Positions 16,911 to 48,451 of a stretch of DNA of 64,000 nucleotides are shown here, piece after piece. The stretch is from Candidatus Zixiibacteriota bacterium (GTDB lineage: Bacteria > Zixibacteria > MSB-5A5 > GN15 > FEB-12). Below the pieces are notes generated by a model. The model saw only the letters and a list, made by a program, of their open reading frames with translations, made no database searches and was not told the origin of the DNA. The first letter of the stretch is position 1, and every line of letters begins with the position of its first letter. The DNA lies in the NCBI GenBank assembly GCA_022571985.1, contig JACZWU010000001.1:219501-283500 (forward strand), in the 5' to 3' direction. A program made the position numbers and the translations under genes.

Positions 16911-16917
16911 GTATTGC

Positions 16918-16986
16918 ACTCCTGACATTCGCGGTTGAAGCGTCAGGACCACGCCAAGGAGGCGGGTCCTGACCTACAGGAACTGC
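16918..16986. repeat. Interspersed hairpin repeat, copy A
   Basis: Contains GAAGCGTCAGGACCAC (16937-16952) and ACAGGAACTGC (16976-16986), both repeated in the same order at 20051-20066 and 20084-20094. Within it GTCAGGACC and GGTCCTGAC form a 9-bp hairpin. The stretch 16911-17243 holds no credible gene, only this and the following repeat. Confidence 0.75.
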
Positions 16987-16990
16987 CTAT

Positions 16991-17087
16991 TTGTCATTCC
17001 CGCTTTAGTCCCGTGTATTCACGGGGAGTGCCGTTGTCGGGAATCCATCTTGCCGTCATTCCGGACTTGTTCCGGAATCCAGTCGGT
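16991..17087. repeat. Interspersed GTCATTCC...GGAATCCA repeat elements
   Basis: TTGTCATTCCCGC (16991-17003) and GGGAATCCATCTTG (17039-17052) bound a 35-nt insert; the same two blocks recur with a 6-nt insert at 43002-43034. A second related hairpin follows at once (GTCATTCCGGA...TCCGGAATCCA, about 17055-17081). Repeats of this look are common between genes of many bacteria. Confidence 0.7.
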
Positions 17088-17243
17088 AATACGAGCACAA
17101 ATAATCGAGTGATTTTCTCTTATCTGTTATGATCCCACAGCCCGCTTAGGCGGGTGGGCAACCCGGCCAAAAATATCATTGGACAATCTGGACTTCTTAT
17201 TCGTCATTATAGATAATTAAATATTACGCGGCGTTTGATTCGT

Positions 17244-19874
17244 ATGTACAAAATAAAATATAGCTTCTATTTAGCACTAATTATGACATTTTGCTCTTAC
17301 AGTTGGTGCTATTCACGGCACCCGGATTTATGCTTTGTTCGTCACGATATCGGTAAGATCGCCCTGGTTCGCAGCAATTATCCGTACTTCGGAGGCAGCA
17401 ATAACGCTGATTTTCCGTCAATTGATTGTCTAACCGGTTTTCAAATACCCCTGGGAAGCTGTTTATACCCCAAAAATTCTCTGGTAACATATCTTGACTT
17501 CGGTTTTGCCTGGGTGGGTGGAATTGTGAAAGGCGATACGCTGGTTTCTGCGCGCTCTATGTGGCCGTCATTTTATGTCTATCCAAATGGTGACGGCTTG
17601 GAGTTCCATTCACACGACTACCCCCTCGGCCACATTGAAACCCGCTCTAATGTAGACCCCTCATCGGATGAATTTGAAGGTTCAATTTCCGAGCAGGATT
17701 TTATTTCAGTTTCAACTGACACAATTACCAGAGGTGTCAATATTATTCCGGACTATTTCAAATCCCGAGCGCACAAGCCAATGGGTCTGGAGTTTGTTAA
17801 CCGGTCTTATGCCTGGTCGCTTAGTCACACCGAGGACATCGTCATGTTTGACTGGCTTATAAGAAACATTGGTAAGGATGTTATCAATGATGTTTATGTA
17901 GGCATCGAACTCAAAGTCGCTGTGGGGGACCTTTATGTTGCGGATCCCTTTGAAGAGAATTTCCGGTATTATGACGAATTTGGGGGATTTCTATCTGTGG
18001 TTAACTCTCCACAAGGATGTGGTTTTTTGGACACAGTATTCGTCGTTTGGGGCGCTGATAATGATGGTGATCCCGTACAGGGTAATTTTGTGGAAAGGCC
18101 TACTGTTGATCCCAATACTGGTAATTTAGTTGCATCTTGTCGCCACGTGAGTGCACTTGAACTAATTTCGGCACCTATAGATTTAATTGCCGGCAATACC
18201 GTCTCCTATAATTGGTGGGATGGCTACTTCTTGCCCGTCTATAACTTCGGGCCGCGAAAGAAGGGTAATTTCAGAGAGTTCCATACTGGCGGACTTGGGG
18301 TACCATGGGGAGATGTGAATAAGTATTACGTAATGCAAAACCGTGAGATTGACTATGACCTCGCTTATATTTCAACTATCAGACAGTACGATCTCAATTG
18401 GATTTATCCTCCGCAGGATATAGTGCCCGATATTTCTGCCGGTACAATCTTGACCCAACTCTTATCTGTCGGTCCATTTGACCTGGCACCGGGAAGCGAA
18501 TTGCCAATCGTACTCGCCTTCGTTATGGGAGAGAACTTTCATACCAACCCCCGAAATTTGGCGAATATTTATAGGGGCGATGTTGATGCCTACTATGCTA
18601 ATCTCGATTTTTCTGATTTAATCAAGAACGCCCAATGGGCCAGATGGATTTATGATAATCCCGGCATTGATACCGACAACGATGGCTACGCCGGGGAGTT
18701 CCGGGTTTGTGTTTTTGATTCTGTGCTTGATGCAAACTCTAACTGGATTGCGACTGTAGCTGAGACTACCTGGTACAAAGGTGACGGCGTGCCCGACTGG
18801 CGGCCGGCCCTGCCACCGCCGGCGCCAAAAATGTGGGTGACGCCGACATTTAAAGGCATAAATATCAGATTTAACGGGCAGGAGTCAGAAAATACTCCTG
18901 ATATATTTACCAGGTTATTGGATTTTGAAGGGTACAGAATATATATCGCCCGTGATGACCGCGAGACAAGTTATTCTTTGCTGGCATCGTATGATATTGA
19001 AAACTATGACAAGTATATCTGGAACTACGAGAAGCAGCCAGAGCCCGGCTGGGAGCTGCTTAACTTTCCCATGACCCTTGAAGAAATCCGCTGTGCTTAT
19101 GGTTCGACTTCGCTCACCACAGGTGCCACAGCCTGCGACGATAGTCTCTTTGATTTCTTGAGATTCCGCCCGAGCTTCCCCTATTCTCCGCCGAACTTCC
19201 CCGAATCACTCTTTTACTTTGTGAAGCATGAATACAATGTCTCTGAATTCGGCGTTACCACTCCAATCACCAAACGATTCCCCAATGCCCCCGACCCGCG
19301 CGGACTTCCGACAGATTCAATCACGGCAGACTTCTACACCGCTGACGGTTATCTTAAATTTTTTGAGTATGAGTTTACCATCGAAAATATCATTCCGACT
19401 GTGGCCTATTATGTCAGCGTGACTGCCATGGATTTTGGCTGGCCGAAATCAGGACTCGAGCCACTGGAGACCTCGATAACAGAGAACGCTCAACAAGTTT
19501 ATGCCAAAATAGTTGACCCGGCAGTCGGCGCCGACAGTTTACGGATAGTCGTCTACCCTAATCCGTATCGTATCGATGCCAACTATCGTTCACGCGGCTT
19601 CGAAGGTTTAAATCAGGATGACCGCTGGAGCGAGAGGGTAAGAAGAATTCATTTTGCCAATATACCGCCCAAGTGCACTATCAGCATATTTTCACTTGAT
19701 GGCGACTTGATCAGAGAGATTCGTCACGACAAAGACCCTGGCGACCCGACAGCAAGACATGCCGAGTGGGGGCTTATCAGCCGCAACGGACTGAGAGTAG
19801 TCTCCGGCTTGTACTACTGGGTGGTCGAGTCCGACAGCCGCACCGAGATGGGCAAGTTAGTGATAATTATGTAG
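17244..19874 (+). CDS. Large secreted protein with a T9SS/FlgD-like C-terminal module, function unknown
   Basis: 876 aa from the ATG at 17244 (a TTG at 17235 adds three residues; neither has a clear ribosome-binding site). Signal peptide MYKIKYSFYLALIMTFCSYS. The body is rich in Trp, Tyr, Asp and Pro, as in beta-rich extracellular proteins, with no catalytic motif seen. A possible FN3-like segment lies near 530-760. The last about 100 residues (VVYPNPYRIDANYRSRG, RIHFANIPPKCTISIFSLDG, GLRVVSGLYYWVVES, GKLVII) match the C-terminal module common on secreted proteins of FCB-type phyla. It stands alone between two copies of an interspersed repeat. Confidence 0.85.
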   Translation: MYKIKYSFYLALIMTFCSYSWCYSRHPDLCFVRHDIGKIALVRSNYPYFGGSNNADFPSIDCLTGFQIPLGSCLYPKNSLVTYLDFGFAWVGGIVKGDTLVSARSMWPSFYVYPNGDGLEFHSHDYPLGHIETRSNVDPSSDEFEGSISEQDFISVSTDTITRGVNIIPDYFKSRAHKPMGLEFVNRSYAWSLSHTEDIVMFDWLIRNIGKDVINDVYVGIELKVAVGDLYVADPFEENFRYYDEFGGFLSVVNSPQGCGFLDTVFVVWGADNDGDPVQGNFVERPTVDPNTGNLVASCRHVSALELISAPIDLIAGNTVSYNWWDGYFLPVYNFGPRKKGNFREFHTGGLGVPWGDVNKYYVMQNREIDYDLAYISTIRQYDLNWIYPPQDIVPDISAGTILTQLLSVGPFDLAPGSELPIVLAFVMGENFHTNPRNLANIYRGDVDAYYANLDFSDLIKNAQWARWIYDNPGIDTDNDGYAGEFRVCVFDSVLDANSNWIATVAETTWYKGDGVPDWRPALPPPAPKMWVTPTFKGINIRFNGQESENTPDIFTRLLDFEGYRIYIARDDRETSYSLLASYDIENYDKYIWNYEKQPEPGWELLNFPMTLEEIRCAYGSTSLTTGATACDDSLFDFLRFRPSFPYSPPNFPESLFYFVKHEYNVSEFGVTTPITKRFPNAPDPRGLPTDSITADFYTADGYLKFFEYEFTIENIIPTVAYYVSVTAMDFGWPKSGLEPLETSITENAQQVYAKIVDPAVGADSLRIVVYPNPYRIDANYRSRGFEGLNQDDRWSERVRRIHFANIPPKCTISIFSLDGDLIREIRHDKDPGDPTARHAEWGLISRNGLRVVSGLYYWVVESDSRTEMGKLVIIM

Positions 19875-19907
19875 GAGCTGAATATATTCAGCCCGATGAT
19901 AGACTGA

Positions 19908-20026
19908 CCCTTCGACTCCCTCGGCTCCCACGGGACTTCGTACGCTTTGGGACTTTGCTGCAAGGCTCAGGTTGATAGGTGTGGCTCTTGTAGGTCAGAA
20001 GGCCTGTCCTGAGCGAAGTCGAAGGG
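19908..20026. repeat. Inverted-repeat element bounded by CCCTTCGACT / AGTCGAAGGG
   Basis: Ten-base inverted arms at 19908-19917 and 20017-20026 enclose about 100 nt without a gene. The right part contains GCCTGTCCTGAGCGAAG (20002-20018), which recurs inside the coding sequence at 45316-45987. It may act as the 3' end of the secreted-protein transcript; no T run marks a classical terminator. Confidence 0.65.
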
Positions 20027-20031
20027 CTTGT

Positions 20032-20094
20032 ACTCCTGACTGTTTTCCTAGAAGCGTCAGGACCACTAAAGGGTCACTGACTTACAGGAACTGC
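20032..20094. repeat. Interspersed hairpin repeat, copy B
   Basis: Second copy of the element at 16918-16986, same orientation: ACTCCTGAC, GAAGCGTCAGGACCAC and ACAGGAACTGC in the same order, with the interior diverged. The two copies flank the 17244-19874 gene. Confidence 0.75.
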
Positions 20095-20147
20095 AACCCA
20101 CAATAAATGGAAAAGTCCCATGGGGTGAGGCACCCGGACACAGCAAT

Positions 20148-21380
20148 TTACTTAAACTCAACCCTGTCGAACTCGTCCCATTCAACTAGTTCAACATCGC
20201 CGTTTACAAGCGTAATAAATATGCCCTTATTGTCCTGATCAACATCGTTGGAACCTCGCAGGCGAAATGTCCGGCCATCTTTGACTGTCACCATTGCACT
20301 GCGTCGGGATCTTTTTTCAATCGATTTAATCAGTCCCATTTCAATATAAAAGTCGGCACCGCGATAGTTGCCGTTTAAAAATTCCCAGGTGTACTCTTCG
20401 TCATTGTCCCAGCGGATATCGCCGGTGTATGATTCATCATCGTCGGTAAAAACCGTTCCCTGCAGTTTCCTGCCGCCGTCGAATTGATTATAGTCTACTG
20501 CTTTTCCCATCGGAGAAAAATCGAGTCGTTCAAATTCATCCCAGCTGACTCGAACTTGTCCGAAACCCGGGTCACTGATTATAATTCCACGGTTGTCGTC
20601 GTCGACATCGTTGGTTCCCCGCAGGACAATTTCTTCGTTGTCATGAAAAATAACCGTGGCCGCGCTGGAACTGTATCTTTCAATAGCCTTTATATCTTTG
20701 AATTCAATTTTCCGGCGCCGCTTGCGAGAATCACCATCAAGGATGTCTTTTGACAAAGTTTCATCAATGTCCCAGCAGACAAATCCTTTATATTCATCTC
20801 CGCGCCTGGTAGTCAGGGTTCCATAAAGTCTGTAGCCGAGCTTTGATTTCAGGTTCTTCTTTGTGGCCGAAAACTCAATTCTTTCTATATCATCCCAGAC
20901 AAATTCAATTTCACCTTCGCTTCTGTCTTCTATGATAATCTCCCTGATATCATCACCGATATCAGTTGAGCCGCCTTCAAGCTCCAGTTCTTCGCCGGAT
21001 TTAAGAATCAACAAGACCCGGTCGTCATCTATTACTTCCATGGTTTTAATATGTCCGAAGCGAATTCCGGACTGGGCGCTTGATGACCAGAAGCTAACGC
21101 CCTTGCTTTTAAACTTTAGACCAAATATCTCAAAAGAAGTCTCCCGGCCTCTGCCCCGCTTTGCCCTGCGAGACTCTCTCAGATTTTTCCTGGAAATATC
21201 TTTACTGCCATCGAGCACATCGACCCAGCTGACTTCGTTTCTGTCCCAGCGTATGAGTCCTTCGTATACTTCATCATCTAAAGTATAAATTTTGCCGTAA
21301 ATGCGGCCAGTGTCGGCGTTGGCTATTAGCGCCACTGCTATAATTACCAAGATAATTAAAACTATTTTCAAGAAATCCAT
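20148..21380 (-). CDS. Exported or anchored protein of three internal repeats, function unknown
   Basis: 410 aa from the ATG at 21380, fixed by GGAGG 5 nt upstream (an ATG at 21398 lacks one). N-terminal hydrophobic segment LKIVLIILVIIAVALIANA. Three repeats of about 110-140 residues follow. Each opens with a strand such as RLYGTLTTRRGDEYKGFVCWD, passes LDG and an IKxIE motif, and closes with a block like LRGTNDVDDDNRGIII...VSWDEFERLDF. Repeats 2 and 3 are the most alike; repeat 1 carries an insert with the basic stretch RRAKRGRGR. The Asp-rich NDVDxDN blocks could bind metal (inference). No family recognised. Confidence 0.85.
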   Translation of the reverse strand: MDFLKIVLIILVIIAVALIANADTGRIYGKIYTLDDEVYEGLIRWDRNEVSWVDVLDGSKDISRKNLRESRRAKRGRGRETSFEIFGLKFKSKGVSFWSSSAQSGIRFGHIKTMEVIDDDRVLLILKSGEELELEGGSTDIGDDIREIIIEDRSEGEIEFVWDDIERIEFSATKKNLKSKLGYRLYGTLTTRRGDEYKGFVCWDIDETLSKDILDGDSRKRRRKIEFKDIKAIERYSSSAATVIFHDNEEIVLRGTNDVDDDNRGIIISDPGFGQVRVSWDEFERLDFSPMGKAVDYNQFDGGRKLQGTVFTDDDESYTGDIRWDNDEEYTWEFLNGNYRGADFYIEMGLIKSIEKRSRRSAMVTVKDGRTFRLRGSNDVDQDNKGIFITLVNGDVELVEWDEFDRVEFK

Positions 21381-41153: not shown

Positions 41154-42035
41154 TTAAGAACCGATATTTTCAGCGGCGGTGACGGTATTGGACAGCAGCA
41201 TAGCGATAGTCATCGGCCCCACCCCACCCGGAACCGGCGTGATATACGAGGCTTTTTCTTTGACCGCCTCAAAATCGACATCGCCCACCAGCCTGTAGCC
41301 CTTTTCTGTATCAGGGTCGTCAACGCGATTGATGCCGACATCGATAACAACCGCCCCCTCTTTGACCATATCCGCGCTGATGAAATTAGGCCGGCCGATA
41401 GCCGCAATTAGAATATCAGCCCGCTTGCAGACCTCGCTTAAATTACTTGTCCGGGAATGAGCGATAGTAACCGTAGCATTGGCCATCTTCCCTTTTTGCA
41501 TCAAAAGCGCAGCTACCGGCTTTCCCACAATATTTGAGCGGCCGACCACGACTGCCTCTTTCCCCTCGGTGCTGATGTCATAATATTCTAAAAGTTTTAT
41601 GATGCCGTGCGGCGTACAGGGCAGCAGTTTCCCCCGGCCGATAAGCATCTGACCGACATTAAACGGATGAAAGCCATCGACATCTTTTTCAGGGCTGATA
41701 TGAACTGTGATTTCAGGCTCATCTATCTGCTCAGGCAGCGGCGACTGTACTAAAAAGCCGTGAATTTTCGGGTTGGCGTTGAGACTTTCTATTATTTCAA
41801 CAAGCTCCTCTTGCGAGAGCGAAGCCGGCTGTCTGATGACTTCAGAATACATGCCCAGTCTATCGCAGGCTTTGGCTTTAGAATTTACATAAGTCTGCGA
41901 GGCCGGGTTGTCACCTACTAAAACCGCCGCCAGACCCGGAACGATGCCTTTTTCTTTCAAGGCTGCAATGCGGGGTTTCAAGCTAAGCTTGATTGATTTG
42001 GCAACTTCTTTGCCGTCTATAATTTTGGCCGACAT
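41154..42035 (-). CDS. folD: Bifunctional methylenetetrahydrofolate dehydrogenase/cyclohydrolase FolD
   Basis: 293 aa, normal length. Motifs: VGDNPASQTYVNSKAKACDRLGM with the catalytic Lys, GFLVQSPLPEQID, PEKDVDGFHPFNVGQM, PCTPHGIIKLLEYYDI, VVVGRSNIVGKPVAALLM and YITPVPGGVGPMTIAMLL. It converts methylene-THF to methenyl- and formyl-THF, supplying purine and initiator-tRNA formylation. Its ATG shares a base with the ymdB stop (TAATG), so translation is coupled. Confidence 0.98.
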   Translation of the reverse strand: MSAKIIDGKEVAKSIKLSLKPRIAALKEKGIVPGLAAVLVGDNPASQTYVNSKAKACDRLGMYSEVIRQPASLSQEELVEIIESLNANPKIHGFLVQSPLPEQIDEPEITVHISPEKDVDGFHPFNVGQMLIGRGKLLPCTPHGIIKLLEYYDISTEGKEAVVVGRSNIVGKPVAALLMQKGKMANATVTIAHSRTSNLSEVCKRADILIAAIGRPNFISADMVKEGAVVIDVGINRVDDPDTEKGYRLVGDVDFEAVKEKASYITPVPGGVGPMTIAMLLSNTVTAAENIGS

Positions 42036-42976
42036 TACACCCCATCCTCTTGTTCAGGTGTGGGGTGTGTCGCCTCTTCGGTCTTATCATTCCCATTGTC
42101 ACCGCCATTTTTCGGGTCGTCTTCGAGATCCTGCGTTTCTGTTTTGTCTCTTTTGAAAATCGCGTCTCTGCTGGCTTCGGCATCTTCAATATCAAAACTA
42201 TACTGGTAACGTTCGATGCTAATCGCCCTGCCCGTCTCTGTTTCTACTCTGACAATCACGCCGGTAATTTTAACATCATCTTTGGCAGTGGTAAAGCGCT
42301 TGGGCATGCCGGTCACAAAACGACCGAGACTGGGGCCGACTTCCATACCGATCACCGAATCATAAGGACCGGTCATACCGGCGTCACTGATATAAGCGGT
42401 GCCTTTGGAGGTCACCTTTTCGTCGGCGGTCGGTACATGAGTATGAGTGCCGACAAGCGCCGAAACTTTGCCGTTTAGGTGATACATCATAGCCTGTTTT
42501 TCAGAAGTAGCTTCGGCGTGGAAATCGACAAAGATGATTTTCGCCTGCTCACTCATGGCTGTCAGCTGACGGCTGGCTTTCTTGAATGGACAGTCGATGT
42601 TGGCCATATAAGTCCGGCCCATCAGGTTTAAGACACCGATTTTGACGCCATTTACATGATCAACAAACACACCCGAACCGGGCACCCCGTGGGGGTAATT
42701 ATCCGGTCTCAGAAGTCTCGGCTCCTGGGCAATATATTCGAGTATATCTACCCTGTCCCAGATATGGTTGCCCGAAGTTTGCAGGTCGACTCCATAGGTG
42801 AAAATCTTCTGAGACATCTCAGGCGTAATCCCGAAACCGCCGGCAGAGTTTTCGACATTGGCGATAACATAATCGGCGCCGAATTTTTCTTTGATAGGGA
42901 TTGTCAGATGTGCGGTCGCCTGCCTGCCGGCCTTGCCGCAAATGTCAGCAATAAAGAGAATTGTGAATACGGACAT
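42035..42976 (-). CDS. ymdB: YmdB-family metallophosphoesterase (TIGR00282 type)
   Basis: 313 aa. Metal-binding motifs of calcineurin-like phosphoesterases: LFIADICGKAGRQA, VIANVENSAGGFGIT, TSGNHIWDR, FVDFHAEATSEKQA, LVGTHTHVPTADE and YISDAGMTGPYDSVIG. In Bacillus YmdB is a cyclic-nucleotide and RNA-related phosphodiesterase and is encoded after rny. Here rny is 3.8 kb upstream, with an accessory interval between. The C-terminal about 45 residues form an acidic, low-complexity tail absent from most relatives. Confidence 0.93.
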   Translation of the reverse strand: MSVFTILFIADICGKAGRQATAHLTIPIKEKFGADYVIANVENSAGGFGITPEMSQKIFTYGVDLQTSGNHIWDRVDILEYIAQEPRLLRPDNYPHGVPGSGVFVDHVNGVKIGVLNLMGRTYMANIDCPFKKASRQLTAMSEQAKIIFVDFHAEATSEKQAMMYHLNGKVSALVGTHTHVPTADEKVTSKGTAYISDAGMTGPYDSVIGMEVGPSLGRFVTGMPKRFTTAKDDVKITGVIVRVETETGRAISIERYQYSFDIEDAEASRDAIFKRDKTETQDLEDDPKNGGDNGNDKTEEATHPTPEQEDGV

Positions 42977-43001
42977 TACCCGTACTTTCTAAGGCGAATA
43001 T

Positions 43002-43034
43002 TTGTCATTCCCGCGGAGGCGGGAATCCATCTTG
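43002..43034. repeat. GTCATTCCCGC...GGGAATCCATCTTG repeat
   Basis: TTGTCATTCCCGC (43002-43014) and GGGAATCCATCTTG (43021-43034) match the two blocks at 16991-17003 and 17039-17052. It sits immediately upstream of ymdB. Confidence 0.75.
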
Positions 43035-43060
43035 TGGGCGGCAGACGTCTCGTCTGCCCC
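43034..43060. repeat. Hairpin repeat, left end of the accessory interval
   Basis: GTGGGCGGCAGACG-TCT-CGTCTGCCCC forms a stem. The same element with few changes lies at 46606-46633 in the same orientation, at the far end of the accessory genes. Confidence 0.75.
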
Positions 43061-43305
43061 TAATTCGGTGCCTCGCCATACACCAAACCATTAGCTTAAT
43101 ATAACTCAGTGAGGAGTCTAATATATCCCTACTTTCAACGCAATAGAATTGATTGAATCAAGAGTTGGATGTGATCATCGGCGAGGAATCCGCCATGCTG
43201 AAAAGACACGGTCCCCAACGTAGTCGAGGGAAAGGCGAGAATTCATGAAGTATAGAATCTATCTAAAAGTTGCCTCAAATTCTTTTTTACTAAGAAAAGT
43301 CTCTA
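43061..43305. other. Gene-free stretch between repeat and YwgA-like gene
   Basis: No frame with coding character, RNA gene or clear terminator was recognised in these 245 nt. The composition is mixed and looks like decayed sequence. Confidence 0.5.
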
Positions 43306-43830
43306 TTATACTAACTCTTTAGAAATTCGGTTAATTGCGCTTAATGCTTCATCTTTGCTTATGTGAGGTTTAATTTGGTGAATTCTGTCTGCTAATTCAA
43401 CATGAGTACCTTCAAAATTTTTCAAAGCATAAAGAGCTGTTGCATACCTTTCGAGCTCCGAAACATTATCATGATCTCTGAAAAAAGTATCTATCGTCCA
43501 GGCAATATCTCTTTCATACCCCTGAGCATGCGCTGAAACAAGACTTCTGAATGATGACGCATGCTTCCCATTTGAAAAGTGGGAGCCATATGGTGGAGAT
43601 TCTTTCCTCTCGAGAATTCCTGTTGCTTCAAGAAACGTCAGTTCACTTTTCAAATCGAATGAATAGGGACCATATTTATATAAGACAAATGAATAACCGA
43701 GGTCAAGATTGCGCAAAATTGACAGAAAATATATTGCTTTTTGAATATGTGTTTCACCAGTCCAAGAGCCAGCCCGATTCAGTTTTTCAACTAAATCTAG
43801 CAGCAAAACCCGTCTCTCATCGTTATTCAT
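43306..43830 (-). CDS. YwgA-like protein, partner of an HD-domain hydrolase
   Basis: 174 aa. The sequence GETHIQKAIYFLSILRNLDLGYSFVLYKYGPYSFDLKSELTFLEATGILER matches the YwgA / Panacea-like pattern, in which a winged-helix-like domain carries YGPYS. In Bacillus ywgA lies beside the HD-domain gene ywfO; here the start overlaps the HD gene by 8 nt in the same order. Function is unknown; Panacea-type proteins elsewhere serve as antitoxins, so neutralising the HD partner is one option (inference). A+T content is higher than in the flanking housekeeping genes. Confidence 0.75.
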   Translation of the reverse strand: MNNDERRVLLLDLVEKLNRAGSWTGETHIQKAIYFLSILRNLDLGYSFVLYKYGPYSFDLKSELTFLEATGILERKESPPYGSHFSNGKHASSFRSLVSAHAQGYERDIAWTIDTFFRDHDNVSELERYATALYALKNFEGTHVELADRIHQIKPHISKDEALSAINRISKELV

Positions 43831-45196
43831 TATCTTCCTCCAAAAACTCTTTCCCCATTTTAGTAATTATGAATTCCTCAATACAAGTTTTAATATCATT
43901 TTTCTTTTGGCGGTCGGCAATCACAAAGTCTTGGCTTGGACTCACAAGTTCGTCAAGAATCTTACTATAAGTCTTACCAAATTCTATTTTGTCAGGTTCG
44001 ACTCTTCGATTCCATACAGAAAAATCGTCTTTTAATGCAGGAGTTCTTTTACCACCCTGATTCCTACTCAATCGAACAGAGTAGTCAGTTTCGGCAAAAT
44101 CGTTGGCAAGTTTATCCTCAAGCTCAGCTTTAACACTATCTACCGCAAACATGTGAATTTCTTTAGGCCTAAATTCATATGCCAATTGAAAGTGGTTTCT
44201 ATCTTGAATCCTCTTAGCCTCCAAATAACCAACAGCTAAACTATTTTGAGAGGCTTTATAGATTTCGGAAAATATTTCGTTATCTGTAAACTTTATGAAA
44301 TTATCCGGGTCTATTGGCCAGAATCCGCCATTCTGCACATTGAGAAATGCTTTCACAAATCTCTCGCAATGAGTGTTGTACGCAGTTGAAACCCGGTGAA
44401 AATACACTTGCATATACATAAAGTATCTTGCCACCAAAAGGGCTTCTGTAGGATGAATCCCACCATGCTCGATCCCAATCGAAATCTCGCTTCTCTCACC
44501 AATTTTTCTCGGAGGCAGGAGTATTCTCAATGTTTGTATCAAACGATCATGGTCAAATTTTCCCGCGACCGCTCCGCAATGATGAGCATCTCGCAATAAA
44601 TAATCCATACGGTCAACACCGAATGCATCCCCAACAATAATTTCATTCAATAATAGTTGCCAATTTTTGAATGGCTCCGACTGAAAATACTTAGGACCAA
44701 CAGCCAATTTAGCAATCAATGAAGGGTTATAAGGAATATCGCAACCATTTTGCAACATGTCTGTTAATTCGGATTTCATAATAATTCTCTTGGTCATAGT
44801 CTCATGATTTTCACCCACAGGAAATAACGATTCAGTCGCATGTGAAAAGGGAGGGTGACCTACATCATGAAGTAATGCAGCCATCCTTAAATGACATCTC
44901 CAGTTAACCAGAATATTGTCATCTAGTTGTTCCTTGAGCTGCTCCACAGATTTAGAGTGGCGATTTTTGTGGTCAAATAGAACATCGAAAGCACGTCCTG
45001 CCAGTTCCATTGTTCCAATGCTGTGTTCAAATCTCGTGTGTACGGCGCCTGGATAAACGAAGTTTGTCATCGACAGCTGCTTAATATGTCGAAGTCGTTG
45101 AAAATAGCGAGACCCAATAACTTTTTTTTCATCATTGTTGAAGTATACAAACGTATGAATTACATCTCTTATTTCATGTTGTACTTTTTTACTCAT
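43823..45196 (-). CDS. HD-domain phosphohydrolase of the SAMHD1/YwfO type (COG1078-like)
   Basis: 457 aa. Signature motifs: FQRLRHIKQLSMTNFVYPGAVHTRFEHSIG, the metal HD pair in RMAALLHDVGHPPFSHATES, and the distal Asp in GDAFGVDRMDYLLRDAHHCG. These define the SAMHD1-like branch of HD hydrolases, which includes dNTP triphosphohydrolases. Substrate here cannot be told. The coupled YwgA-like gene suggests a two-component unit. No Shine-Dalgarno of note; a gene on the opposite strand starts 120 nt upstream. Its position in an accessory interval admits a nucleotide-depletion defence role (inference). Confidence 0.85.
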   Translation of the reverse strand: MSKKVQHEIRDVIHTFVYFNNDEKKVIGSRYFQRLRHIKQLSMTNFVYPGAVHTRFEHSIGTMELAGRAFDVLFDHKNRHSKSVEQLKEQLDDNILVNWRCHLRMAALLHDVGHPPFSHATESLFPVGENHETMTKRIIMKSELTDMLQNGCDIPYNPSLIAKLAVGPKYFQSEPFKNWQLLLNEIIVGDAFGVDRMDYLLRDAHHCGAVAGKFDHDRLIQTLRILLPPRKIGERSEISIGIEHGGIHPTEALLVARYFMYMQVYFHRVSTAYNTHCERFVKAFLNVQNGGFWPIDPDNFIKFTDNEIFSEIYKASQNSLAVGYLEAKRIQDRNHFQLAYEFRPKEIHMFAVDSVKAELEDKLANDFAETDYSVRLSRNQGGKRTPALKDDFSVWNRRVEPDKIEFGKTYSKILDELVSPSQDFVIADRQKKNDIKTCIEEFIITKMGKEFLEEDNE

Positions 45197-45315
45197 AATT
45201 CTACTTTGGTCGTTCTATTGTATAGTCTCAAAGATAGTTCCCGCGAAAGTCAAATTCCCTACCAAATCACCCCAAAATACTCGTTGGCCCTTGATAAGTA
45301 AAGAGGTCTATTACT

Positions 45316-45987
45316 ATGTCCACGTCAGAGAAACAATTAAACGCCAACCGGCAAAATGCCCAAAAGTCAACCGGTCCCATTACCGAAACCGGCAAAAAGG
45401 CCTCAAGCCAAAATGCCGTCAAGCATGGCCTCCACAGCTGCCAAATCGCCATCAATTCCCCTCGCCTGAAAGAAGACGCCACTGAATACGAAATTCTCGT
45501 GGCATCCTTATTCGATGAACACCAGCCCCGCTCTCCCCTGCAGGAACACTTAGTTTACAAAATCGCCAACTGTATGTGGCGCTACCGCCGCCTCATCTCT
45601 GCCGAAACCGCCGAAATCAACAGACAGCTCCAGCCCCACGACACATTTTTAATCGACAAAGAAAATTACTTCGAGCATTTTGAAAACTCCGGTGAACTCG
45701 AAGACCTGCTCAATTCGAGAACAATCCCAACTGGAGAGACCGCAAATCGTTTCCTCCGCTACGAATGGCGCCTGAATCGTGAACTCCACCACGCTTACAC
45801 CCTATTGCGTTTGCTCAAAATAATGGAAAAAGCCGAAGCGAAATCAGAAAACGCCCTCACCGTCTTATCCCAAACCGAGCCTGTCCTGAGCGAAGCTTTA
45901 GTCCCAAATCTGACTTGTCGGATGGGGGACGAAGGGCCGATCGAATCGGATTCACCACAAAACCACTACAACCACAAGCAAATATGA
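45316..45987 (+). CDS. Protein of the ANRxNAQKSTGP family, unknown function
   Basis: 223 aa. It opens with EKQLNANRQNAQKSTGPITETGKKASSQNAVKHGLHS, a motif (ANRxNAQxSTGPxTxxGK...NAxKHGL) seen in short proteins present in several copies in many uncultured and soil bacteria; the role is not known to me. The middle is helical and rich in Arg, Glu and Leu. The C-terminus reads through an interspersed repeat (GCCTGTCCTGAGCGAAG, about 45880-45896), so the last about 35 residues may be read-through of inserted repeat. It is the only plus-strand gene within 28 kb and uses many C-ending codons, unlike its neighbours. Confidence 0.7.
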   Translation: MSTSEKQLNANRQNAQKSTGPITETGKKASSQNAVKHGLHSCQIAINSPRLKEDATEYEILVASLFDEHQPRSPLQEHLVYKIANCMWRYRRLISAETAEINRQLQPHDTFLIDKENYFEHFENSGELEDLLNSRTIPTGETANRFLRYEWRLNRELHHAYTLLRLLKIMEKAEAKSENALTVLSQTEPVLSEALVPNLTCRMGDEGPIESDSPQNHYNHKQI

Positions 45988-46020
45988 CAAAACGAACCCA
46001 TTCGCGCGAAGCGTCGCCGT

Positions 46021-46050
46021 CCCGCGGGCTTTGGCCCCGCGGGGCATTTT
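46021..46050 (+). terminator. G+C-rich hairpin after the ANRxNAQKSTGP gene
   Basis: CCCGCGGG (46021-46028) pairs with CCCGCGGG within 46035-46044 around CTTTGGC; ATTTT follows. It is a plausible terminator for the plus-strand gene that ends at 45987, or a repeat hairpin. Confidence 0.5.
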
Positions 46051-46101
46051 GCAGAAACGCGACACCCGACAGCACGAAGCCCTGTTTCATTTGTGTTTGT
46101 C

Positions 46102-46551
46102 TTATCGGAAGAGCACCAGCTCTCCGCTTCTATGGATGTTTTTCCAGAATAGAGATAACCTTTTGCTATCTAATTCGTAGGCATATACGTCTTTCAATTT
46201 CAACGCAAAGCCATCCACAATATCCATGAATTTGCATCCCATCATAGTCGTGCTACCTAAACTAATCGTCATCAGGTTCTCTGTTAAGCTCGTAATGGCC
46301 GCAGAGTAAGTGTTACAGTCAGCCCTGGCTGAGATTCTCCCTGAATCATCAATAGTTAAAGTCAATTCTGGAAAATTACGTAATTGAGGGTGAGGAGGTG
46401 AGTTCGCCCAGGTCCAAATACCTGCCAATTTGGAATGATAAGGTGTAAGGTTAATGTTCTCATTACGGATGTTTTGATGGATTTCACTACACGAAATTTG
46501 AATTAGACTAATCCAAACGATAAAGAATGTGAATTGGAGAAAGCGTTTCAT
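46102..46551 (-). CDS. META/HslJ-like domain lipoprotein
   Basis: 149 aa from the ATG at 46551; an upstream start at 46635 would place the signal peptide inside the chain. The N-terminus KRFLQFTFFIVWISLIQISC fits a lipoprotein signal with a weak lipobox. The META fold follows: LAGIWTWANSP, LTLTIDDSGRISARADCNTYSAAI, MTISLGSTTMMGC, LKLKDVYAYELDSKRLSLFW. META/HslJ proteins are envelope proteins linked to stress or novobiocin resistance in E. coli; the role here is open. The gene lies in the accessory interval beside rny. Confidence 0.8.
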   Translation of the reverse strand: MKRFLQFTFFIVWISLIQISCSEIHQNIRNENINLTPYHSKLAGIWTWANSPPHPQLRNFPELTLTIDDSGRISARADCNTYSAAITSLTENLMTISLGSTTMMGCKFMDIVDGFALKLKDVYAYELDSKRLSLFWKNIHRSGELVLFR

Positions 46552-46605
46552 AACAGTTTTACAAACAAAAGATGAATTTCTTCCGGGTTCGCACTTAATA
46601 TTTAC

Positions 46606-46633
46606 GTGGGCAGCAGATGTCCTCGTCTGCCCC
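46606..46633. repeat. Hairpin repeat, right end of the accessory interval
   Basis: GTGGGCAGCAGATG-TC-CTCGTCTGCCCC, same orientation as the copy at 43034-43060, with a few substitutions and one extra base. The HD/YwgA, ANRxNAQKSTGP and META genes lie between the two copies. Confidence 0.75.
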
Positions 46634-46650
46634 AAAGACCCGAGGCAGCT

Positions 46651-46716
46651 CTATCTCGCGTACTCGGTGGCGCGGGTCTCTCTTATAACTGTAACTTTTA
46701 TCTGCCCCGGATACTG
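46651..46716 (-). pseudogene. Truncated second copy of the 3' end of rny
   Basis: The minus strand encodes 21 residues and a TAG that are identical in protein to the end of rny (QYPGQIKV...ATEYAR) but differ in 12 of 21 codons, every one synonymous (CAG/CAA, TAT/TAC, GGG/GGA, GTT/GTC, ACA/ACG, ATA/ATC, AGA/CGC, GAG/GAA, ACC/ACG, AGA/AGG and others). Identity stops at the codon before Gln. It lies 63 nt past the real stop and has no start or body. A recent tandem copy would not look like this; it derives from a diverged rny. Confidence 0.9.
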
Positions 46717-46736
46717 TGCAAGCGTAGCGAAGCCAT

Positions 46737-46761
46737 CCCACGGAGCTTCAGCTCCTGTGGG
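46737..46761. repeat. Hairpin between the two rny 3' ends
   Basis: CCCACGGAGCT / AGCTCCTGTGGG forms an 11-bp stem with one bulged T and a 2-nt loop. It lies between the rny stop and the pseudo-3'-end and may be the working terminator of rny, although no T run follows. Confidence 0.5.
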
Positions 46762-46779
46762 GCATCACCGCCCGGCCCC

Positions 46780-48345
46780 CTACCTCGCATACTCCGTGGC
46801 GCGGGTTTCGCGGATGACCGTGACTTTTATCTGTCCCGGGTATTGCATCTCACCTTCGATTTTTTCGGCAATATCGCTGGCCAGAATTTCTGCAGCCAGA
46901 TCATCAAGCTCGTGATTTTCGACTATCACACGAATTTCGCGGCCGGCCTGAATAGCATAGGCTTTGGCCACGCCTTTGAAACTGTCGGCCAGTTCTTCAA
47001 GCTGTTTCAGCCGCTTGATATAAGCTTCCAGCGGCTCTCGGCGGGCGCCCGGTCTGGAGCCAGAGATAGCATCTGCCGCCTGCACCAGCACCGGATAAGG
47101 AGAAATCATGGGTACATCGTCGTGGTGCGACTCGGCCGCGTTTACTACAAACTCATGCTCTTTATAGCGGCGTAAATACTCGGCGCCAATCTGGGTATGC
47201 GTTCCTTCTGTCTCGCGGTCTATGGCCTTGCCTAAATCGTGAAGCAGTCCGCAGCGTTTGGCCATGACGGCGTCAAGCCCGAGTTCAGCTGCCATCAGTC
47301 CGCAAAGCATCGAGACTTCTTTGGAGTGGGCCAGCACGTTTTGACCATAGGAAGTTCGATAGTGAAGTTTGCCCAGTTGATAGACTATTTCCTCGTGAAG
47401 GCCATGGATAGAGAGTTCGAAACAAGCCTGCTCGCCGGCCTCGCGGACTTTTACTTCCATCTCCTGCTTTGATTTTTCGACGACTTCTTCGATTCTGGTC
47501 GGGTGGATGCGGCCGTCAGAAACAAGTTTTTCCAGAGACATCCGGGCAATCTCGCGACGAACCGGGTCGTAGCCTGACAAAATTACAGCTTCAGGAGTAT
47601 CATCAACAATGACATCGATACCGGTCAGGGTTTCAAACGAACGGATATTGCGTCCTTCGCGGCCGATAATCCGGCCTTTCATTTCTTCGCTGGGCAGGTT
47701 GACTACCGAGACAGTAGTCTCGGCAGTATGGTCGGCAGCGCAGCGGTAGATGGAGCCTAAAATTATTTCCTTGGCTTCTTTTTCAGCATCTTTTTCAGCT
47801 TTTTCTTTTATCTCTTTTATATGCGAAGCAGCCTCCATTTTGGCGGCGCTGACCATATTTTCCATCAGCTGCTTCTTGGCTTCTTCGGGGGTCATCTGAG
47901 CAATTTTTTGCAAACGTTCGTTCTGCTGCGAGATAATTTTCTCCAGCTCTTCTTGCCTTATTTCCAGCCCCTTTTCTTTGCCCTGAATGGTAGACTCGCG
48001 GCCGGACATTTCGTTATCTCTTAGATCAAGAAATTCAAGGCGCTTGTTGACATCAGCTTCTTTGTCGCTGCTTCTTTTTTCAGAAGATTCTACTTCGCGT
48101 CTTCTGGTTTCGATCTCTTTTTCGAAATCGAGTTTGACCTTCATCCATTCTTCACGGGCCTCTAAAATCGCTTCTTTCTTTTTGATTTCAGCGTCTTTTT
48201 CCCCCTGCTCTATCAGCCGTTTGGACTGGCTTTCGGCATCATTGAGTTTATGAGAAATACTTTTGAGCGCCAGCATTCTGGCTACAAAAAACGAGGCCAC
48301 CCCGATTATTAAGGCGACAACTATATACAGGACAGGATTTTCCAT
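46780..48345 (-). CDS. rny: Ribonuclease Y
   Basis: 521 aa from the ATG at 48345, fixed by GGAGG 5 nt upstream; a farther in-frame start at 48384 is less likely. N-terminal membrane helix (ENPVLYIVVALIIGVASFFVARML), a long coiled coil (about 35-200), a KH domain (GRIIGREGRNIRSFETLTGIDVIVDDTPEA) and the HD nuclease domain (RCGLLHDLGKAIDRETEGTHTQIGAEYL, ESHHDDVPM). RNase Y starts mRNA decay at the membrane. It follows zapA; ymdB, its usual next neighbour, is displaced by the accessory interval. Confidence 0.98.
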   Translation of the reverse strand: MENPVLYIVVALIIGVASFFVARMLALKSISHKLNDAESQSKRLIEQGEKDAEIKKKEAILEAREEWMKVKLDFEKEIETRRREVESSEKRSSDKEADVNKRLEFLDLRDNEMSGRESTIQGKEKGLEIRQEELEKIISQQNERLQKIAQMTPEEAKKQLMENMVSAAKMEAASHIKEIKEKAEKDAEKEAKEIILGSIYRCAADHTAETTVSVVNLPSEEMKGRIIGREGRNIRSFETLTGIDVIVDDTPEAVILSGYDPVRREIARMSLEKLVSDGRIHPTRIEEVVEKSKQEMEVKVREAGEQACFELSIHGLHEEIVYQLGKLHYRTSYGQNVLAHSKEVSMLCGLMAAELGLDAVMAKRCGLLHDLGKAIDRETEGTHTQIGAEYLRRYKEHEFVVNAAESHHDDVPMISPYPVLVQAADAISGSRPGARREPLEAYIKRLKQLEELADSFKGVAKAYAIQAGREIRVIVENHELDDLAAEILASDIAEKIEGEMQYPGQIKVTVIRETRATEYAR

Positions 48346-48451
48346 TTCAGCCTCCGCTCCGGTCATTCTGACCGAATTCAGCAAGGATGTTTTTATTGAA
48401 ACGGATTAAAAATTAATAAAAGAGTATTCGAGCCAGGCTAAGCAAGAGGAC

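Follow-up and report, generated by a model that had tools for sequence, protein, structure and literature searches.

We analysed the interval between the genes rny and ymdB in a 64,000-nucleotide stretch (hereafter the window) of contig JACZWU010000001.1 from a Candidatus Zixiibacteriota bacterium. The gene for RNase Y, rny (46780–48384, minus strand; TIGR03319, 710 bits), flanks the interval on the right, and ymdB (42035–42976, minus strand), which encodes a metallophosphoesterase of family TIGR00282 (above cut-off; PF13277, E = 3.5e-98), flanks it on the left. The gap between them is 3.8 kb, and the open reading frame list of the window places four open reading frames inside it. An earlier note on this DNA had described the gap and its four genes, and every feature it listed is present; it was also right that the genes have no housekeeping role, while their defence character went unrecognised. 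Our reading, to which we give a probability of roughly 0.6, is that small defence cassettes enter the rny–ymdB junction by recombination, making it an accessory site in this genus, and that the cargo in the window is a two-gene module for defence or of a kind resembling toxin–antitoxin (TA) systems.

The two genes in question are adjacent and on the same strand. The first (43823–45196, minus strand) encodes an HD-domain phosphohydrolase of the SAMHD1/deoxynucleoside triphosphate hydrolase (dNTPase) superfamily (PF01966 and PF19276), the predicted effector, and sequence comparison grouped this protein with the PDB entries 2hek and 2o6i and with SAMHD1. It overlaps by 8 nt with the gene for a 174-amino-acid protein (43306–43830, minus strand), which we call the partner. 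The partner protein matches only the C-terminal half of DarG models, and a profile search of the PDB found 7yk3, the DarTG complex. An AlphaFold model of the partner (predicted local distance difference test score, pLDDT, 94.3) was compared with known structures using Foldseek, and the only strong structural match was again 7yk3 (template modelling score, TM, 0.74; E = 4e-5). The model thus indicates a DarG C-terminal domain fold for the partner, and the protein is predicted to act as a restrainer, in the manner of an antitoxin.

A scan of the genome collection with the HD protein as a single sequence returned no relatives, and a scan with the partner profile was used instead. This gave 206 relatives, and the counts of loci that follow rest on the best 80. 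An HD gene was found just upstream of the partner gene, on the same strand, in 65 of these 80 loci, mostly with a spacing of −8 to +8 nt, and the catalytic residues of the HD motif were retained in 46–51 of 51 sequences. The hosts are both bacteria and archaea, and include Methanosarcinales, Halanaerobiales, Acidobacteria, Latescibacteria, Planctomycetota, Deltaproteobacteria and Pelotomaculum genomes. In ten loci related to bacteriophage exclusion (BREX) systems (L213, L215, L239, L252 and L272 among them) the order HmaA–HD–partner–HmaB was seen on one strand, and an eleventh (L267) held HmaA, the partner and HmaB without a match to the HD gene. HmaA accounted for 9 and HmaB for 8 of 119 neighbouring genes; the families listed for 115 control genes included neither, a rough comparison since the controls were not from the same hosts. 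Within the taxonomic order of the window genome, the HD gene is accompanied by a small gene in six relatives, and in three of these the small gene clearly matches the partner in sequence. The pair had no match on plasmids or phages in the collections searched, and five viral contigs carried relatives of the partner. We found no paper on the pair, within an incomplete coverage of the literature.

Two further observations concern the HD genes. The window genome contains a second HD gene, distant from the first (G000:C11:21057–21791; L164 2976–4861), followed by a small gene of 152 amino acids with a pattern, K.VYLIQ..FVFHHYG, that by eye resembles the partner. Among the partner loci (L201–L280), the HD gene seems to be broken in about 12 of 68 cases, showing internal stops or being split over several frames, while the partner is intact; this was not used as evidence, and the excess of broken frames may be a bias because the loci were selected by an intact partner.

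The cargo of the window is probably a two-gene virus-defence module. We propose more tentatively, at somewhat less than even odds, that the HD protein and its DarG-C-like partner form a portable immune module, not described before, that works in bacteria and archaea either alone or within HmaA/HmaB operons, and in which a dNTPase-type effector is restrained by protein binding. Deoxynucleotides, or a nucleotide signal, would be the substrate of the predicted HD enzyme, and their breakdown would stall phage replication or the infected cell. By analogy with DarG, the C-terminal domain of which is seen bound to DarT in the solved structure, and with the restraint of a toxic effector in Clover (see below), the partner would bind the HD enzyme directly and keep it inactive, and infection might then free the enzyme from its partner and lead to nucleotide hydrolysis.

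The junction was surveyed by searches of the window genome and its relatives, with 64 genomes having rny and ymdB on one contig. The gap did not exceed 239 bp in 59 of the 64 (median 94 bp), and the adjacency of the two genes is therefore ancestral, in line with the statement of the earlier note that they are neighbours in many bacteria. The exceptions were the window genome (3806 bp), its genus-mate G002 (5119 bp), G017 (6653 bp), G027 (4336 bp) and G075 (901 bp); in five further genomes the two genes were split over separate contigs. Cargo found at the junction in relatives comprised a signal peptidase, an oxidoreductase, a methyltransferase or a beta-helix protein. The cargo of G017 and G027 consists of non-defence genes, indicating that the junction accepts insertions in general, and defence cargo is clear only in the genus of the window. 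In the relative G019, rny and ymdB each lie close to contig ends; a Mrr-type restriction endonuclease and a DUF885 protein are encoded downstream of rny (L147 96–1157), and the contig stops before ymdB.

A closer comparison was possible with G002, the sister species, which is colinear with the window genome over the 64 kb at 87–90%, save for three gross differences. The rny–ymdB interval is one of these. In G002 (L144) it contains a homologue of the STGP gene described below and genes for a protein with a caspase domain (PF00656), a TIR protein of the ThsB type (PF08937) and a beta-propeller protein, and the TIR gene adjoins the caspase-like gene (L144 4165–5124 and 5124–5504). Type IV Thoeris is made up of a TIR protein and a caspase-like protease within one operon (PMC12847820), and judged by sequence the G002 pair is type IV Thoeris-like. 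The comparison among relatives that the earlier note had suggested thus revealed variable content, and the same genes were not found throughout the group, since the HD gene of the window has no match in either genus-mate. The other two gross differences lie at 16912–20155 and about 6400 of the window. Besides rny–ymdB, the variable sites are one at which the window genome encodes an 879-amino-acid secreted-type protein and G002 an IS30-like transposase, and one at which G002 has a 3.6 kb insertion with repeated small lipoprotein genes; no gene-end duplications were seen at these two sites.

These results bear on a simpler account, in which unrelated genes built up in the ordinary way at a tolerant site after rny and the HD pair forms an operon for metabolism or regulation, not for defence. 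The signal peptidase, oxidoreductase, methyltransferase or beta-helix protein found there in other relatives would fit such a build-up, as would the abundance of COG1078-type HD proteins and the presence of a second HD and small-partner pair elsewhere in the genome. However, it does not sit well with the nesting of HD-partner pairs in HmaA/HmaB operons in ten loci, with the DarG-C fold of the partner, or with the Thoeris-like pair that the sister carries at this junction, and we think it quite improbable.

The right side of the interval carries a trace of how the cargo may have arrived. The 3′ end of rny (46780–46845) is repeated at 46651–46716 (minus strand; 22 codons including the stop) with 80% identity over 66 nt, the only significant repeat in the whole window. 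A spacer of 63 bp separates this displaced copy from rny, and the cargo is on the far side of the copy, not between the two ends; as the repeat adjoins rny so closely, it does not bracket the cargo. Over the 66 nt, displaced and true ends show 13 differences, of which 12 fall on third codon positions; all 13 are synonymous, for which the probability by chance is about 1e-8 (about a quarter of random changes would be synonymous). Compared with the true rny end of the sister, the copy shows 12 changes, synonymous only. Because every difference is synonymous, the displaced copy must have diverged within a functional rny elsewhere, that is, as the xenologous end of a working gene in another lineage. 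The gene-end duplication that the earlier note described is therefore real and is evidence of DNA joining, but it is not evidence of an element bounded by the copy.

A restored gene end accompanied by a displaced, synonymously diverged one is also the classical footprint of site-specific integration. An element carrying its own rny end would have restored rny upon entering its 3′ end and displaced the native end downstream; it would since have been lost save for 63 bp, with the cargo as the remnant of an earlier tandem insertion. Compared with the sister, rny has 14 changes in its last 66 nt and 3, 4, 3 and 4 in the four 66-nt segments before them; GC content at third codon positions (GC3) is 0.73 in this final stretch and 0.53 in the gene. 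A displaced copy that is decayed, frame-shifted and 48 nt long is also present in the sister, 258 bp behind its rny. However, the excess divergence of the rny end over the whole gene is modest (p = 0.004) and other 66-nt segments of rny reach 13 and 17 changes, so that a break close to the boundary of the duplication is suggestive only. Just 63 bp separate the two rny ends, and the cargo is outside them. Family scans recognised no integrase or recombinase among the interval genes of the window or the sister and no transposase in the window interval, as the earlier note had reported for the latter. No further clear displaced rny end was seen among 80 genomes searched in the order, and the rny-end pattern had no match in viral contigs. 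On balance, we regard integration of this kind as unlikely.

We favour the joining of a donor fragment over integration of an element, since in the window and in the sister alike the cargo is found on the far side of the displaced end. The cargo may have come on DNA of a related bacterium that already had genes downstream of its own rny, and the foreign rny tail would thereby have been joined just behind the native gene. Dispersed hairpins and conserved flanks may aid such exchanges. The earlier suggestion of a mobile or recombination-prone locus thus holds for the second part, as the site is variable and has other genes in the sister, but there is no sign of a self-mobile element at the junction. 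The locus is of a known kind, with variable cargo at a conserved junction.

Hairpin repeats near both ends of the interval had been taken as its boundaries. The hairpin GGGCGGCAGACGTCTCGTCTGCC at 43034–43060 recurs in the same orientation as a second GGCAGACG-type hairpin at 46606–46633 (87% over 31 nt; 0.02–0.04 chance matches expected in the window), and such a pair could mark the ends of a composite mobile unit. A search of the genome for more copies, proposed in the earlier note, showed that the hairpin is not confined to the interval: two patterns gave 10 and 19 matches to the GGCAGACG-type palindrome, which together represent about 28 different sites in the 2.93 Mb; the reversed-pattern control gave no matches. 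A neighbouring hairpin, TTCCCGCGGAGGCGGGAA at 43004–43029, is one of 29 genomic sites of the TTCCCGC type, with none in controls. Both are REP-like (repetitive extragenic palindromic) dispersed repeats, and they were rejected as the ends of an interval element because copies occur throughout the genome. The arrangement of hairpins also differs in the sister, no transposase was recognised in the interval, and of three Y1_Tnp transposase genes in the genome the one read base by base bears a different flanking palindrome. A hairpin-bounded element is thus largely refuted by the dispersed copies, and we consider it most improbable. The Y1 transposase gene that was read (L171; G000:C2 near 121763) is flanked by GTCGAAACC palindromes and followed, ahead of the next gene, by hairpins of several other families; it is likely to be a REP-associated tyrosine transposase (RAYT) with its own REP family. 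A third palindrome of the interval, CCCACGGAGCTTCAGCTCCTGTGGG (46737–46761), is located within the 63-bp spacer (46717–46779) between the displaced end and rny.

The remaining features of the interval are two genes and a non-coding block. The 'STGP' gene (45316–45987, plus strand) encodes a protein with the motif NRQNAQKSTGP..GKKASSQNAVKHGLHS. Its family (NRQNAQKSTGP..GKKASSQNAVKHGL) is dispersed: about half of the relatives have between one and seven matches, many of which are truncated or interrupted by stops, and loci of the family include L163 and the interval of the sister (L144). The STGP protein had no Pfam match above cut-off and no match in PADLOC, NCBIfam or PHROGs. We regard STGP as an undescribed dispersed gene, which may be a passenger or mobile-like. 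The other gene (46102–46551, minus strand) encodes a META-domain lipoprotein (PF03724, E = 8.8e-10), with an ATG start read from the sequence. The non-coding block at 43064–43167 is 83% identical to the sister species, where two copies surround the beta-propeller gene.

Several points weigh against the view that the junction receives defence cassettes by recombination. Half of the interval genes in the window, STGP and the META lipoprotein (two of four), are not recognisable as defence genes, nor is the beta-propeller gene of G002. Relatives with an interval at L145 and L146 hold non-defence genes, and the junction is therefore not a dedicated defence hotspot. The role of the partner rests on its fold and gene order, and defence, toxicity and enzyme activity of the pair are all predicted. 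The control genes for the Hma enrichment came from relatives of the window genome, which belong to other phyla than most HD-partner loci. Finally, the displaced rny end differs by 9–22 nt from other genera and by 12 nt from the sister, and its donor cannot be named because 66 nt are too few. What the results do establish is the ancestral adjacency of rny and ymdB, the different cargo in two sister species, the dispersal of the REP-like hairpins over the genome and the xenologous rny end.

If this view is correct, sister species can come to carry different defence cassettes at a conserved junction although no recombinase is recognisable there, and a foreign gene tail remains as the trace. The HD-partner module is the most novel part of the locus and a new variant worth testing: it is a two-gene unit in which the effector family includes SAMHD1-type enzymes and the partner shares the fold of a toxin-neutralising domain, and it is spread over bacteria and archaea, also inside larger defence operons.

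The locus resembles several known systems in part. Like defence hotspots between conserved genes, it has variable predicted defence cargo at a fixed junction, but it has no mobility gene, other families are mostly without cargo, and the comparison is between two members of the genus. It shares with 3′-end integrative elements a restored gene end and a displaced, synonymously diverged one, and differs from them in having no integrase and in cargo that lies outside the two ends; it also appears to be hardly recurrent in the order. The TIR and caspase-like pair at the same site in the sister resembles type IV Thoeris and is absent from the window; signalling to the protease by N7-cADPR is a biochemical trait of that system, and the likeness of the sister lies in the gene pair. 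The HD-partner pair lies between the HmaA helicase and the HmaB methylase in the ten loci akin to Hma and type 1 BREX-related systems (PMC8565338, PMC12839542), whereas in the window it stands alone, without HmaA helicase, HmaB methylase or HmaC ATPase; a text search of these two papers found no mention of an HD gene. As in DarTG, the window encodes a protein with the fold of the toxin-binding C-terminal domain of DarG (PDB 7yk3), but there is no DarT ADP-ribosyltransferase or macrodomain, and the neighbour of the partner is an HD phosphohydrolase. In Clover (PMC12265719), which consists of the dGTPase CloA and CloB, the partner keeps a toxic dGTPase in check, and the window likewise encodes an HD-fold effector of predicted dNTPase-type activity beside a small partner. 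Unlike CloB, a nucleotidyltransferase that makes p3diT, the partner in the window is a DarG C-terminal-like domain, and restraint in this pair would therefore be by binding.

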